From Geobacillus thermoleovorans (lineage in GTDB: Bacteria; Bacillota; Bacilli; Bacillales; Anoxybacillaceae), in assembly GCF_001610955.1 (NCBI RefSeq), contig NZ_CP014335.1, positions 1,715,001 to 1,779,000 of the forward strand: a DNA stretch of 64,000 nt. The letters are read 5' to 3'. The position numbers and the translations under genes were made by a program. Within the stretch, counting starts at the first letter, position 1. Every line of letters begins with the position of its first letter. Shown piece after piece: positions 10,160 through 50,714 of the stretch. The notes under the pieces were generated by a model. It did no database searches. It was not told the DNA's origin and worked only from the letters and a program-made list of their open reading frames with translations.

Positions 10160-10444
10160 ATGATGCAAAACTCGCCTTCCATCGCTCAGCGGAAAAGTGA
10201 TTCCTTTCTGACGAATGGTTTTTACGAATATTTACAAAAACAGAAAGTAGGATATGCCGATATGATCCCCCTTTTTTTCAATATCGTTTTTTTGCTCGTG
10301 CTTCTTGCCGTCGGTTTATCCGTCGTCTTCCTGAATAAATTTGCGTCAAACCGGATTCGCATGATCAGCTACACTGAGCCTCTCCGTTGGGTGCCGTTCA
10401 ACAATTATCAGCTGAATCAAATCAACAAAGCGGCGCAACCATAA
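10160..10444 (+). CDS. Small single-pass membrane protein, unknown function
   Basis: A 94-residue ORF with one strong membrane segment (about residues 37-61, IPLFFN to VVFLNKF) followed by a basic and polar tail ending NQINKAAQP. No family was recognised. The ribosome site before ATG 10160 is weak. An internal ATG at 10262 with GTAGGA upstream would give a 60-residue form that starts right at the membrane segment. It is convergent with yidC2 and shares a perfect terminator with it, which supports a transcribed gene. Function unknown. Confidence 0.55.
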   Translation: MMQNSPSIAQRKSDSFLTNGFYEYLQKQKVGYADMIPLFFNIVFLLVLLAVGLSVVFLNKFASNRIRMISYTEPLRWVPFNNYQLNQINKAAQP

Positions 10445-10454
10445 GCGCAAAGCG

Positions 10455-10491
10455 AAAATCCCGCGCCTGCTTGAAGCAGGCGCGGGATTTT
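10455..10491. terminator. Perfect bidirectional terminator
   Basis: AAAATCCCGCGCCTGC and GCAGGCGCGGGATTTT form a perfect 16-bp hairpin with T-runs in both directions, serving the small membrane gene and yidC2. Confidence 0.85.
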
Positions 10492-10501
10492 CACTGATCC
10501 G

Positions 10502-11251
10502 TCAGCTATTTTCCGCCGTTTTCGCCGCTTTCAGCTGACTGCGCAAAATGAGCGACTGGATGATCGAGAAGCAGCCGCCAACCACCCAGTAAAGCGACAG
10601 CGCCGATGGGACGGAGCTGGCGCCGATAAAGATCATGACCGGCATGATGTACGACATCATCGCCATTTGCGGCATTTGTTCTTCGGCCATCGACGGCGAG
10701 AGGCGGAGCGAGATGAACGTCGTCAACGCCGCCAAAACGGGCAAAATGAAATACGGATCGCGGTGGCCAAGCTCGACCCATAGGAACGAGTGGGTTTTAA
10801 TTTCTTGCGTCCGCGAAATCGCGTAATAAAGCGCCATAAAAATCGGCATTTGAATTAACACCGGCAGGCAGCCGCTCGCCGGGTTGACGCCGTGCTTTTG
10901 GTACAGCTGCATCATTTCTTGCTGGAGCTTGCGCTGCGTTTCCGGGTCTTTGCTTTTATATTTTTCTTGCAGCTTCAACAATTCCGGACGCAGCTTTTGC
11001 ATGGCGAGTGATGCGCGGAACTGCTTCAAAATGAGCGGCAGCAAGCAAAAACGGACGATGAGCGTCAGCACGATAATGGCGATGCCGTAGTTGTCGCCAA
11101 ACCAGTGCCCAAGCGTCAAAAGGAGCTTCGACATCGGGTAGACAAAATAATGGTTCCAAATGCCTTGGCTATGTTCATTGATCGGTTCGTTGCGGTTGCA
11201 GCCGGAAAGAAGCAAGACTGCACCAAGCAGCACCAATACCCATTTTTTCAT
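10502..11251 (-). CDS. yidC2: Membrane protein insertase YidC/OxaA family lipoprotein
   Basis: A 249-residue YidC homologue that inserts and folds membrane proteins alone or with SecYEG. It begins with a lipoprotein signal (lipobox LLSGC), then a periplasmic-side helix and the conserved five-helix core: NYGIAIIVLTLIVRFCLLPL with the hydrophilic-groove Arg, the cytoplasmic coiled-coil hairpin with MQKLRPELLKLQEKYK, and QMPIFMALYYAI. The start ATG 11251 follows AAGGAGGG, but that site can be buried in a stem (separate entry). Because the preceding short ORF resembles mifM, I read this as the second, inducible YidC (YqjG-type) rather than SpoIIIJ; the paralogue assignment is inference. Confidence 0.93.
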   Translation of the reverse strand: MKKWVLVLLGAVLLLSGCNRNEPINEHSQGIWNHYFVYPMSKLLLTLGHWFGDNYGIAIIVLTLIVRFCLLPLILKQFRASLAMQKLRPELLKLQEKYKSKDPETQRKLQQEMMQLYQKHGVNPASGCLPVLIQMPIFMALYYAISRTQEIKTHSFLWVELGHRDPYFILPVLAALTTFISLRLSPSMAEEQMPQMAMMSYIMPVMIFIGASSVPSALSLYWVVGGCFSIIQSLILRSQLKAAKTAENS

Positions 11252-11315
11252 GAAAAGCCCTCCTTACTATCATGTTGCAAAATCATGCCGTTTCATCATA
11301 AAGGAAAGGGCCTTC
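11252..11315 (-). promoter_or_regulatory. Stem-loop sequestering the yidC2 Shine-Dalgarno
   Basis: On the minus strand the left arm GAAGGCCCTTTCCTT (11315-11301) can pair with AAGGAGGGCTTTTC (11265-11252), which contains the ribosome site of yidC2. Pairing is nearly complete apart from a small bulge. The left arm coincides with the last codons of the upstream ORF, so a ribosome paused there would hold the stem open. Pairing was judged by eye, without energy calculation. Confidence 0.7.
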
Positions 11316-11562
11316 CATCCTCATCCGTTCGGCTTGTCCGTTCCCGAACGGGAATTTTCCGCCGCTGCGGCAAAAACAGCGGGCGCCATGGAAGCGCCGC
11401 TCGTTCGGCGCCTCCTCCCGCCTCCCGCTCGCGAACCGAGGCCAACGCCGGCTCGTAAAACAATGATTTCGCTGTCCGATGTGCGCCCATATACCCTTTC
11501 ATGATGATCCATAACGCGCCGACAAGCGACATATACACAAGCAAATCAATAGGCGCTTCCAT
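11296..11562 (-). CDS. MifM-like regulatory nascent-chain (arrest) peptide, candidate
   Basis: An 88-residue ORF directly upstream of yidC2. It has one N-terminal membrane segment (residues 5-22, IDLLVYMSLVGALWIIMK), a polar Arg-rich linker, then RRKIPVRERTSRTDEDG (67-83) and only five further residues before the stop. B. subtilis MifM has the same plan: about 95 residues, N-terminal membrane segment, C-terminal basic stretch, an acidic DEEDAG-type stall site a few codons before its stop, and an SD-masking stem before yidC2. ATG 11562 has an AAGGGGGTGG site; the in-frame ATG at 11607 has none. Sequence identity to MifM is low, so the call rests on architecture and position. Confidence 0.68.
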   Translation of the reverse strand: MEAPIDLLVYMSLVGALWIIMKGYMGAHRTAKSLFYEPALASVREREAGGGAERAALPWRPLFLPQRRKIPVRERTSRTDEDGRPFPL

Positions 11563-11647
11563 GCGTCCCGTCCACCCCCTTTTGCCCCGTCCATCTTCTC
11601 TTCTCATACAATAGCAAACTTTCCATCAAAAGAAAAGCAACAATTGA

Positions 11648-14600
11648 TCACATCCGCTCCAAGCGGTGAAATGCCGGCTCGTCAGCCGCCAACATGGCGA
11701 GCTCTCCGCTTTCATCAGCCGAAAATGCCGCCTCAAGCTCTTGCTTCGCCTCATCGAAGCGTCCAAGCAGCGCGAGACAGCGGGCTCGTTCGTAGCGAAG
11801 TCGAGCATCTTTGGCCATATGGACGCACCGTTCAATGGCAGCCAAAGCCCGCTCAATGTGCCCTGCCGCTTCATAAGCAGCCGCGAGCTGCATATTCAGC
11901 TCTTCATCCTCAGGATACCAATCGGCGTAGCGCTCCCAAAGCGCCGCCGCTTCCTGATAGCGGCCCGTTTCCATATACTGTTCGCCAAGCAACATGAGCG
12001 CCTCACGGGCGAGCGGTTCTTCCGCCACGATCGCCTCCAGCTGCCGCTCGGCTTTCTCGTGCTGCCCTTCTTGAAGCCAAACGACCGCCTGCAACACGCG
12101 CAGTTCGACATCGTCCGGGTCATCAGCCACTAGCCGTTCAAGCCACCGCTTGGCTTCTTGGCGCTTCTTCTCATCGTCGGCCTTCAACAAGTGTTCGACG
12201 AATTCACGCGCCAATGAAGGATCCCAAACGCGGGCGAGCGCCCGGCGCCACGTTTTGATGGCATCGTCCTCCAGCTCGATCGCCGCATAGAGGCGGGCGA
12301 GCTGCCCATAGGCTTCCGCATCGCTGCGATTGAGGCGAATCGCCTCCTCATACAAATCAATGACGATCGAAAACAAGGAAAACCTGCCCATCCATTCTTT
12401 CGCTTTTGTCCACCACCGCACCGGCTCGTCGCTTTCGTTCTGTTCCTCTTCCAAATACGGAAGGAGAGCGGCGGCCGCATTCCGATAAACAACGCTTTTC
12501 GCCTCACGGCCGATCTTCAGCCGCTCCAGCCGGTGGCGCAGCTTCCCTAAGCCGCGCATCGTTTTCGGGAATAAGGCGACATATGCCGAATACAACGATT
12601 CATCGTCGGGATGGCGCACCATCAACCGCTCGAGCAGCTTGATTGCCTCTTTCGTGCGTCCTTCCCGGCTAAGCACATTCGCGTAATGACGAAGCACTTC
12701 ACTGTGATCCGGGTCAAGAGCAAGCGCCCTCTCGACCGCCGCCTTTTCTTGATCGCGGCGTCCGAGCGCTCCATATACATACCCGAGGCTGTCATAGTAC
12801 CACACATCTCCTCCACGCGGACGGGCATCGGCCAACGTCTCAAGCAGCGCCGGAGGCTCTATGATCGCTGCAAGCTGTTCGCTATCCACTCGCAGCGGAG
12901 CAAGGCGAACCGCCTGAAGCAAATGCGCGTGCTGCCGCTCTTCGTTTCCTTCTGCCTCATAGAGCGCAGCTAAGCGAAAATGGCAGAGGACAAACGACGG
13001 ATCGGCTTTGAGACACGCCTCATAATGTTGTTTCGCCTCTTGGTAGCGTCCGAGCGAGGCGCACAGCTCCGCCAGCCGGAAGAGTGAAAGCCAATGGCCC
13101 ATGGCGGCGGCTTCTCGGTAAAACGCCATGGCCTTGGACGGCCGGCCTTGCCGCTCATAAAGGACGCCGAGAGCGGAATGGGCCGAAGCGAGTTTCGGGC
13201 GAGCCGAGACAAGCTGTTTCAAAAACGCCCGGCCGCGCTCTCGAAGAGTTGGCGTTGTCAGCTGGTCGATGTAAAACTCGTACGCTTCTTCGGCATCAAA
13301 CTCGGCGAGGCGCAGCCCTTCCTCCAACCACGACAGCGCCGTCTCGCGTCCTTCCTCCTCATCGGCGAAACCGTGGGCGATGAGCCATTTGCCTGCATTG
13401 AGCCAATATTCGCTGTTGTTGGCAAAACGGGTGCGCTGCTTGATTACATACCGGCGCGCCGCTTCCACATCCCCGCGCTCCGCGAGGGCGGCCGCCAAGC
13501 CTAGATGGGCAAACACGTCATCGCTGTCATGGCGGATCGCCTCTTCGTAGCACGAAACCGCTTGTTCCGCCTCTCCTTCCTCCATATAGAGATCGCCAAG
13601 GCGGACGTAAAGCGGCGCCAACCGCCAGGCGGCGGCCAATCCCTCTTCCAACACCGCTTTCGCTTTTTCCCGATCACCGTCGTCATCATACAAGTCAGCC
13701 AACATCAAATACGGGTACGGTTCCTGCGGGTCGAGCGCTTTGGCGACGCAAAAGCCGCGTTCCGCCTTGCGCCGGCGGCCGAGCTCCCGATCGCAGCGGG
13801 CCCGCTCATACCAAAGCTGGGCATCCCGCCGTTCGCGGCGCACAAGACGATCAAACCAGGCGCGCGCTTCGGCAAACCGCTTCGCGTGGAACAACAGCAC
13901 ACCATGGTTCGTTTCGATAAACAAATCGCCCGGATATAAGCTGACCGCTACGCGCGAAGAGATGAGCCCTTTTTCGATATGACCGGCGTACGCCGAGGCG
14001 AGTCCGAAATAGCTCCACACTTCCGGCTGATCTGGGTCCAACTGGAGCGAGGTGCGAAAATAGCGAGCCGCCTCTTCGTAGCGGCTGGCAAAAAAGGCGA
14101 TTCGGCCGCGCAAATAATGGTAGAGCGGGCTTTGTGCCTTTCCTTTCACCCGTTTGAGCACGTCTTCAGCCTTCTCCATTTCTTGCGTGTAGATATACGC
14201 TTTCGCCGCCATCAGCAGCAAGTCGTTATGTTCGGGATACTCGCTCAAGACGCGCCTGGTGTAATCAAACACAAGCGGCTTCGCCTCATCGCTGCTAAAA
14301 TGCTTCATGACATACAGCCATGTGTACGGGATGTGCTCATGCTTGCGCAAAAAGGCGACAAACGCGTCGAAATGCGCCTGCTCGTCCTCATCCATCTTTT
14401 CGGCCAACGCATGCAATTCGCGGAAATAGCGGTCTTCCTCTTCGGGGAGCTCGGCGGCGAGCGCCGCTTTTTCCCGGGGAAGCGCCACAATCGACAAATA
14501 ATGCGTCCCTGCATACCATTTGGCAAGCTCGTCCTCGGAAACAACAAACGGATCAAATAGATTCGGGTCTTGCACGTACAACGCCCCAAGCCGCTCGTCA

Positions 14601-49880: not shown

Positions 49881-50714
49881 TGCTTCTCTTCGGGACGGCA
49901 GCGCCAACAAGTGGAGCGTCACTTCCGGCTTCGAGCCGATTCGAATGTTCACCCCGGTTTGCCCAAGCCCTTCGTTGATATAAAACGGTTTCCCCTCCCA
50001 TTCATGATAACCTTTGATCATGTTCCGCTCGGTGAGCGTTTTGCTCATTTTCGCCAAATGGTACGGCTTTGGCCAATGAATTTGCCCGCCGTGGAAATGG
50101 CCGGACAACAAGTAGTCAAAATGATAGTCTTTCATATGCGGCACGATGTCCGGATCGTGCGTCAACACGAGGTTGATGCCGTCTTTCACGCCGGCGTATG
50201 CCTTTTTGATGTCGCTGCGCCCCGTGTAAAAGTCATCGATGCCGATGATATTGACGGTTTGACCGTTGACGGTGATCGTTTTCGTCTCGTTTTGCAAGAC
50301 GACGCAGCCGTGCGCCTCAAGCGTCGCTTTCAAGCGCGCAAACGGTTCGCCTTGAAGCACGTAATCGTGGTTGCCAAACACCGCATACATGCCGTACGTC
50401 GGTTTCAATGCATTCAGCGCGGCCAAATACGGACTGAGCTTGGCGATGCTTTCCTCACGGTCCAAAAAGTCGCCCGTCAACGCGATCAAATCGATCGCTT
50501 CCTCTTTCAGCTTTTCGTATAAATCGTCCGGGGTGATCGACAGTTTTTCAAGATGCAAATCCGATAGCTGCAAAATCCGAAGGGCTCCGTCTCCATCCTC
50601 TGAACGGCCGACTTGGACTTTATGCAAAACCGCTTCATACGTGTTGCGGTGGGCTTTGCGAATGGCCAAAGCAAGCAATAACAAGATTGCAAGAAAAACA
50701 AAAAAGAATGTCAT
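49866..50714 (-). CDS. Membrane-anchored metallophosphoesterase (YkuE/YaeI-like)
   Basis: A 282-residue calcineurin-type phosphoesterase. One N-terminal membrane anchor (FFFVFLAILLLLALAI) is followed by the metal motifs LSDLHLEK, LTGDFLD, GNHDYV, LTHDPDIV and SGHFHGGQIH. Relatives hydrolyse UDP-sugars or lipid-linked phosphates. ATG 50714 follows GGAGGAGAG and is preferred over the in-frame start at 50741. Single gene between nhaC and the YkoP-like gene. Confidence 0.9.
   Translation of the reverse strand: MTFFFVFLAILLLLALAIRKAHRNTYEAVLHKVQVGRSEDGDGALRILQLSDLHLEKLSITPDDLYEKLKEEAIDLIALTGDFLDREESIAKLSPYLAALNALKPTYGMYAVFGNHDYVLQGEPFARLKATLEAHGCVVLQNETKTITVNGQTVNIIGIDDFYTGRSDIKKAYAGVKDGINLVLTHDPDIVPHMKDYHFDYLLSGHFHGGQIHWPKPYHLAKMSKTLTERNMIKGYHEWEGKPFYINEGLGQTGVNIRIGSKPEVTLHLLALPSRREAVKAV

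Follow-up and report, generated by a model that had tools for sequence, protein, structure and literature searches.

Does the short open reading frame (ORF) that precedes yidC2 in Geobacillus thermoleovorans encode an arrest peptide of the MifM type, and if so, is it related to MifM itself? MifM of Bacillus subtilis is encoded by an upstream ORF (uORF) before yidC2, and a ribosome stalled on it opens a stem in which the Shine-Dalgarno (SD) sequence of yidC2 is otherwise masked, as described in the available portions of two reports (PMC6037786, PMC4423224). We examined this question in a window of 64,000 nucleotides of G. thermoleovorans DNA and in genomes of the surrounding family, order, and class.

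The leader ORF and its locus

The leader, a candidate MifM-type arrest peptide recognized by ORF reading and by its homologues, is an ORF of 88 codons on the minus strand (11296–11562), with its ATG at 11562 and its TGA at 11298–11296. The yidC2 ATG follows at 11251 after 44 nucleotides. The yidC2 gene (10502–11251, minus) encodes a 249-amino acid protein assigned to 60KD_IMP by Pfam/NCBIfam-type family match; its match to a lipobox is weak. Along the minus strand, a TPR protein gene of 1386 codons comes first, followed by a promoter-like element, the leader, the 44 nucleotides, and yidC2. A 94-codon ORF with a hydrophobic stretch and no Pfam match lies convergent to yidC2 (10160–10444, plus). 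The promoter-like element (CTTTTCTTT...TTTGCTATTGT; 11608–11637, minus) has, as judged by eye, a counterpart in about 13 of 17 aligned leaders and none in L020, L034, L038, and L039. A consensus promoter scan made no call at this element.

The leader has a single hydrophobic segment, at residues 5–21 (11500–11550), which was defined by hydropathy and charge balance. Its flanks carry charges of –1 (N-terminal) and +3 (C-terminal), and it is expected to adopt an N-out/C-in orientation. Codons 68–71 (11350–11361) encode R-K-I-P, which we propose as the upstream part of the arrest motif, and codons 80–83 (11314–11325) encode the acidic site DEDG, which would be the stall region by expectation; both were delimited by alignment. 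The glycine codon of this site and the next arginine codon are GGA AGG (codons 83–84; 11311–11316). An earlier, sequence-only reading had reported an ORF of this length and position with one N-terminal membrane segment, in agreement with these boundaries. It had also recognized the acidic site but put it four to nine codons before the stop; with the stop at codon 89, the actual distance is six to nine codons.

The leader matches no family in Pfam or NCBIfam above cut-off, and nothing in Rfam at the gathering score. (Elsewhere in the window, Rfam identified a cobalamin riboswitch at 8–199 and a tRNA at 1003–1074, both on the minus strand.) A PDB search with the leader profile gave five weak matches, every one of them a dopamine-receptor chain. 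Searches of protein databases with the single query and with the family profile returned named matches from Geobacillus only, and a wider profile also matched Anoxybacillus, Priestia, Metabacillus, and Bacillus sp. Further reading frames besides that of the leader are open in this GC-rich region, so the openness of the leader frame weighs little by itself. As the masking of the yidC2 SD is also unexceptional among the starts of the window, the case for the leader rests on conservation.

Conservation of the leader peptide

Searched with a profile of ten close homologues, 40 of the 41 genomes of the family, in nine genera, proved to have the leader. The weakest true matches had E values near 3e-4, and their peptides were read out. 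The leader adjoins yidC2 in 39 of these 40 genomes. The genome without it, G009, lacks yidC2 as well. In G023 (locus L044, 393–656 and downstream), the leader is intact and yidC2 is gone, with other DNA in its place that we take to be transposons, presuming its unsearched ORFs to encode transposases. The neighboring genes, which we take to be isochorismatase-like and phosphoribosyltransferase-like, are retained. A second, decayed leader-yidC2 copy occurs at L045 (G007:C25), and an intact copy is found elsewhere in G007.

Conservation is concentrated at the two ends of the peptide, namely the membrane segment and a tail resembling QRKIPxxERSxxSDEEGR (family pattern RKIPxxER....DE(E/D)GR), and the linker between them drifts in sequence. 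The first acidic residue, counted as the residue preceding the conserved Glu, is residue 80 in 34 of 40 leaders and ranges from 75 to 81, and the site reads DEDG, DEEG, GEEG, EEEG, or DDEG across the 40. The distance from the membrane segment to the third acidic residue is 56–61 residues. Among 14 Geobacillus leaders, pN/pS is 0.25 for the C-terminal motif, 0.51 for the linker, and 0.37 for the whole ORF. The tail also has a lower pS (0.22 vs 0.35–0.39 in the rest of the leader), and low synonymous change is as expected here from RNA constraint. The position of the stop codon varies: leaders L020, L025, and L038 extend more than 40 codons beyond the motif and over the yidC2 start, and L030 ends directly after DEEGR. 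These overruns and this early end suggest that stalling is not signaled by the stop codon.

Predicted masking of the yidC2 Shine-Dalgarno sequence

The yidC2 SD (AAGGAGG, 11259–11265, minus) is predicted to lie within a stem. The left, anti-SD arm falls within the last codons of the leader (11300–11318), and the right arm contains the SD and start codon (11250–11265). A 101-nucleotide segment (11330–11230) has a predicted folding energy of –27.9 kcal/mol (z = –3.2; none of 200 shuffles equally good), and its minimum-energy arms (11318–11305 and 11263–11250) take in the greater part of the SD and start codon. For SD masking among the 27 starts ranked in the window, yidC2 is fifth lowest at 37°C and second lowest at 60°C. 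The stem is predicted to be still closed at 60–70°C; we assume that the host grows near 60°C. Five terminator-like sites occur in 10380–11800 (2.7 expected, sd 1.7), and none of the five coincides with the stem. One of them, a hairpin with a T-run within the leader (11398–11382, minus), is not beyond chance for the stretch.

Elsewhere in the window, a 13-bp hairpin (50765–50717, minus; arms 50765–50753 and 50729–50717) masks the SD before the ATG at 50714 of an ORF (50741–49866) that presumably encodes a metallophosphatase, with a fold z of only –1.8. The sequence TATAAT occurs in its loop (50745–50740), and transcripts from such a promoter would consequently lack the masking arm, whereas read-through transcripts would contain it.

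The predicted SD pairing occurs with codons just after the acidic site in 39 of 39 family loci. Counted from the base that opens the acidic motif, the pairing codons begin 13 to 18 nucleotides downstream and finish by +27 (+36 in L022). The SD core is less than 10% unpaired in 36 of the 39 and 16–40% unpaired in the other three. In control yidC1 genes linked to rnpA or YidD, one of 27 SDs is less than 10% unpaired and the median is 51%, with openness taken over six bases in the controls and five in the family loci. When the last leader codons are recoded synonymously, the SD becomes free at p≤0.05 in 31 loci of the 39, without a significant effect in the other eight; with the window's own codon usage, p for the window is 0.011. 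Over nine genera, the combined Fisher probability is 1.3e-7 (6e-8 with other representatives), and three of the nine representatives (two of nine with the other set) are not significant singly.

The left arm occurs in three designs, or stem registers, across the family. In Geobacillus, GGCCCTTTCCTT is opposed to AAGGAGGGC; in genera g4, g5, and g7, which we take to be Parageobacillus-like, GGAGACCTC is opposed to GAGGTCTC; and in Anoxybacillus-like genera, CTCCTTGTTTG is opposed to CAAACAAGGAG. The three designs would appear to serve one job, SD masking. Covariation was detected in 3 of 21, 1 of 9, and 0 of 10 pairs of the respective registers, which offer little variation to weigh.

On points that the sequence-only reading saw or proposed to check, these results show that the segment folds better than its shuffles, that the last leader codons are predicted to pair with the yidC2 ribosome site, that ORF and stem are conserved in relatives (40 of 41 genomes and 39 of 39 loci), and that the codons of RRKIP...DEDG change less, relative to synonymous change, than the linker.

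Outside the family, a hand-chosen sample of 54 loci, 47 of which were processed, yielded 45 with a leader by rule; L150 and L201 were scored leaderless though other readings show a leader. The SD is less than 20% unpaired in 39 of these 45, and 21 pass the recoding test while 24 are not significant, counts that include L078, where the yidC start or SD is misplaced, and L132, where it probably is. SD pairing falls upstream of the acidic site in L190. Of the other seven loci, L224, L230–L233, and L235 were read for masking in a separate set of eight, seven of which gave a result (all but L221); L218 is outside both counts. Six MifM loci have an SD less than 4% unpaired, and these six and one g68 locus have the arm at +18 to +28, like the family geometry. 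FLL, SLLL, or RLLV, which follow the acidic site in many lineages, read as the anti-SD stretch in translation.

Invariant codons after the acidic site

All 39 family loci use GGA for the glycine directly after DE(E/D), and the next codon is AGG in all 36 leaders that have Arg there, the remaining three having Ser (AGT/AGC). In five genes of the window, GGA accounts for 38 of 210 Gly codons and AGG for 5 of 267 Arg codons, and AGG is used for 2 of 342 Arg codons across the 39 yidC2 genes. The Pro codon of RKIP varies freely by comparison (CCC 8, CCG 11, CCT 12, and CCA 8 of 39). Because GGAAGG lies mostly outside the masking stem in the Anoxybacillus-like design, pairing cannot account for it in that group. 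GGA-AGG is absent from the corresponding place in all 46 non-family leaders read. Rare codons are known to influence decoding, and our guess is that GGA AGG makes a codon-level or SD-like contribution to the stall.

Relationship to MifM

The leader and MifM share their position before yidC2, one N-terminal membrane segment, an acidic stretch near the end, a spacer near 55–60 residues, and a stem masking the yidC2 SD. The spacer is 55 residues to the fourth acidic residue in the MifM of L231 (56–61 to the third in the family), and the published median is 54. DEDG at residues 80–83 falls within the range of the MifM-type acidic stretch (residues 75–95). The MifM arrest residues R69, I70, W73, I74, M80, and N81, as given in the available text of PMC6037786 and PMC4423224, are replaced by RKIP..ER in the window leader, and DEED-AG by DEDG; the leader also differs in the invariant GGA AGG past the acidic site and in the sequence and register of its stem. 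The six residues are absent from the tails of all 40 family leaders, which have K-x-P there. The exact published motif, used as a DNA pattern, was found in none of 397 genomes of the order. Peptides of the form RI.TWI....RM[NK]....DDED precede yidC2 in seven genomes of a single genus (L226/L231, L230, and L232–L236); this form departs from the published motif by one exchanged acidic residue and, in two of the seven, by K for N.

MifM was represented in our comparisons by peptides from the genomes of one genus, that of B. subtilis itself not among them. Aligned by hhalign with a family-only profile, it scored 0.5%, and with wider profiles 4.9% and 71.7%. A profile of 25 K-x-P sequences aligned with MifM at 70% over 84 columns (score 27.95), and the best of 60 shuffled-tail controls scored 15.9 and the reversed control 12.6. 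Leaders of Niallia and Pullulanibacillus bridge the two groups in profile comparison: K-x-P against Niallia gave 83% and Niallia against MifM 77–84%, with none of 60 controls as high in each case. The link to Fictibacillus leaders is unclean (2 of 60 controls equally high), and that to Listeria leaders is weak (11% and 16%; 0 of 60 controls each). A class-level profile search matched MifM in one of at least five genomes of its genus, G250, exactly before yidC2 (E = 0.004), and missed it in G082, G149, G176, and G272. The 12 non-family matches of this search comprised eight before a YidC-like gene (G042, G074, G120, G200, G225, G250, G483, and G569), three without such a gene, and one (G498) whose position was left unread.

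The leader might have arisen independently of MifM and converged on its layout, an origin to which the exchanged tunnel residues, the failure of the narrow profile comparisons (0.5%, 4.9%), and the single class-level match within the genus of MifM would all be suited. We regard such convergence as unlikely, since it is opposed by the K-x-P alignment over 84 columns, by the Niallia intermediates, and by the placement of the G250 match. To judge from the wider profiles, divergent homology to MifM is the likelier origin, and one ancestral mifM-yidC2 pair with exchanged tunnel residues is the simplest reading, although not a proven one. The sequence-only reading had called the leader nearly unrelated to MifM, which describes the tunnel residues and the narrow profile well and the broad profile poorly; of its two suggestions, a divergent or a separately evolved version, the former is favored.

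YidC paralogues and leaders in other families

The second YidC of this genome is encoded by an rnpA-linked gene and is 51% identical to YidC2. In a tree of 87 chosen YidC rows, yidC1 is separate from yidC2 with support of 89/12, a separation that is neither shown nor rejected. The YidC2 proteins of Bacillus, Listeria, Niallia, and Pullulanibacillus cluster, on long branches that call for caution. A recent, lineage-specific duplication in the Geobacillus family was also considered; a single clade of its yidC2 and yidC1 is rejected by an AU test (p = 4e-5) whose group was chosen after the tree was viewed.

Iterated profiles reach leaders in genomes of Priestia and of f11, f42, f6, f28, f3, and f35. 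Those read out lie before yidC, and the weak matches L087 and L088 have no yidC nearby. Alkaliphile leaders were located through their YidC2. K-x-P is present in 30 of the 45 chosen non-family leaders, a figure that includes near-copies in a hand-chosen set and is not a rate. The 15 without it are from Fictibacillus (3), Pullulanibacillus (2), Niallia and Bacillus sp. V3B (2), and Listeria (8). Most fetched Listeria yidC2 loci (L190–L209) carry a uORF that contains W[LI]... and whose end is acidic. Outside the order, at L218 and L219 (G483 and G569), a leader reading RRKCP[VA]KESS.GDEEP overlaps the start of a YidC-like gene that is very divergent (33–35%).

Proposed mechanism

Within the family, the peptide, its spacing, the position of the stem, and the masking of the SD are conserved, as judged from sequence and predicted folds. 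We put the probability at about 0.83 that the leader is a divergent MifM-type monitoring substrate for insertase activity; the stall, the release by insertion, and the regulation are what we infer from MifM (PMC6037786, PMC4423224). By comparison, the layout is MifM-like, as the sequence-only reading held, in its tail peptide, near-fixed spacing, well-placed stem, and second yidC downstream.

If YidC were sufficient, insertion of the N-out/C-in segment would pull the nascent chain, and the ribosome would clear RKIP..DEDG and depart. The anti-SD codons would then re-pair with the yidC2 SD, and little YidC2 would be made. If insertion were failing, the ribosome would remain with D82/G83, or perhaps R84, in the P site. 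With a footprint of the usual size, it would cover the left arm, 14–25 nucleotides downstream of the first acidic codon, and thereby free the SD, so that yidC2, the gene of the backup insertase, would be translated. Points against this reading are the intact leader retained in G023 although yidC2 was lost, the loci in which recoding has no significant effect, the three less well masked family SDs, the scarcity of covarying pairs, and the absence of the six MifM arrest residues.

Translational coupling would dispense with arrest and sensing altogether: the stem overlaps the end of the ORF, any translating ribosome would open it, and yidC2 output would track translation of the leader. Coupling leaves the conserved RKIP..DEEG peptide and its spacing unexplained, and the stop position on which it might depend is not kept (L020, L025, L038, and L030); we think it has little chance of being correct. 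That the leader is instead a working small membrane protein, such as a YidC2 partner, whose overlap with a regulatory stem is due to chance, would fit the conserved membrane segment and the whole-ORF pN/pS but is very improbable, given a linker that diverges at nearly constant length, conservation centered on a tail whose end coincides with the start of the stem, and post-acidic residues that in many lineages read as the translated anti-SD stretch.

Within the MifM-type reading, a more specific and rather doubtful proposal is that the arrest is encoded by peptide and codons together, with K-x-P replacing RI/WI/MN and GGA-AGG holding the ribosome, and that K-x-P is the common form in Bacilli and B. 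subtilis MifM the odd one. The hold by GGA-AGG would come about through slow decoding or through SD-like pairing with 16S rRNA.

If the MifM-type reading is true, a well-studied arrest peptide becomes part of a family that has replaced its tunnel contacts yet kept layout, spacing, and RNA switch, and the contacts needed for force-sensitive stalling become comparable across it. The thermophile version could yield stalled complexes stable enough for structural work. Whether the stall is set by the mRNA as well as the peptide is a question posed by the invariant codons.

Comparison with known systems

A literature search found no work on a Geobacillus MifM or on this leader in Geobacillus; one review mentions Geobacillus along with MifM and arrest peptide (PMC9360617). 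Fujiwara et al. (2024) describe a MifM cluster of 572 Firmicutes uORF proteins in 592 genomes, delimited by sequence clustering, an acidic window at residues 70–100, and an N-terminal signal. The window leader has the acidic residues and the signal and may be among the 572, and the available portion of that paper gives no K-x-P motif for the group (PMC10987492). Sensing of YidC has been demonstrated for CliM of Clostridia, which has in common with the leader a membrane segment, a C-terminal arrest motif, and an SD-masking stem before yidC2; the CliM motif, K-[YW]-x-I-W in the available text (PMC13183943), is absent from the leader sequences here. ApcA of actinobacteria likewise is a uORF before yidC2 with a membrane segment and an arrest motif, R-A-P-G in the available text (PMC7897499), which the leader sequences lack; none of them has an RAPP-type R-A-P-G, R-A-P-P, or R-A-G-P near the C terminus. 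New here is the invariant GGA-AGG that follows the acidic residues (39 of 39 and 36 of 36).
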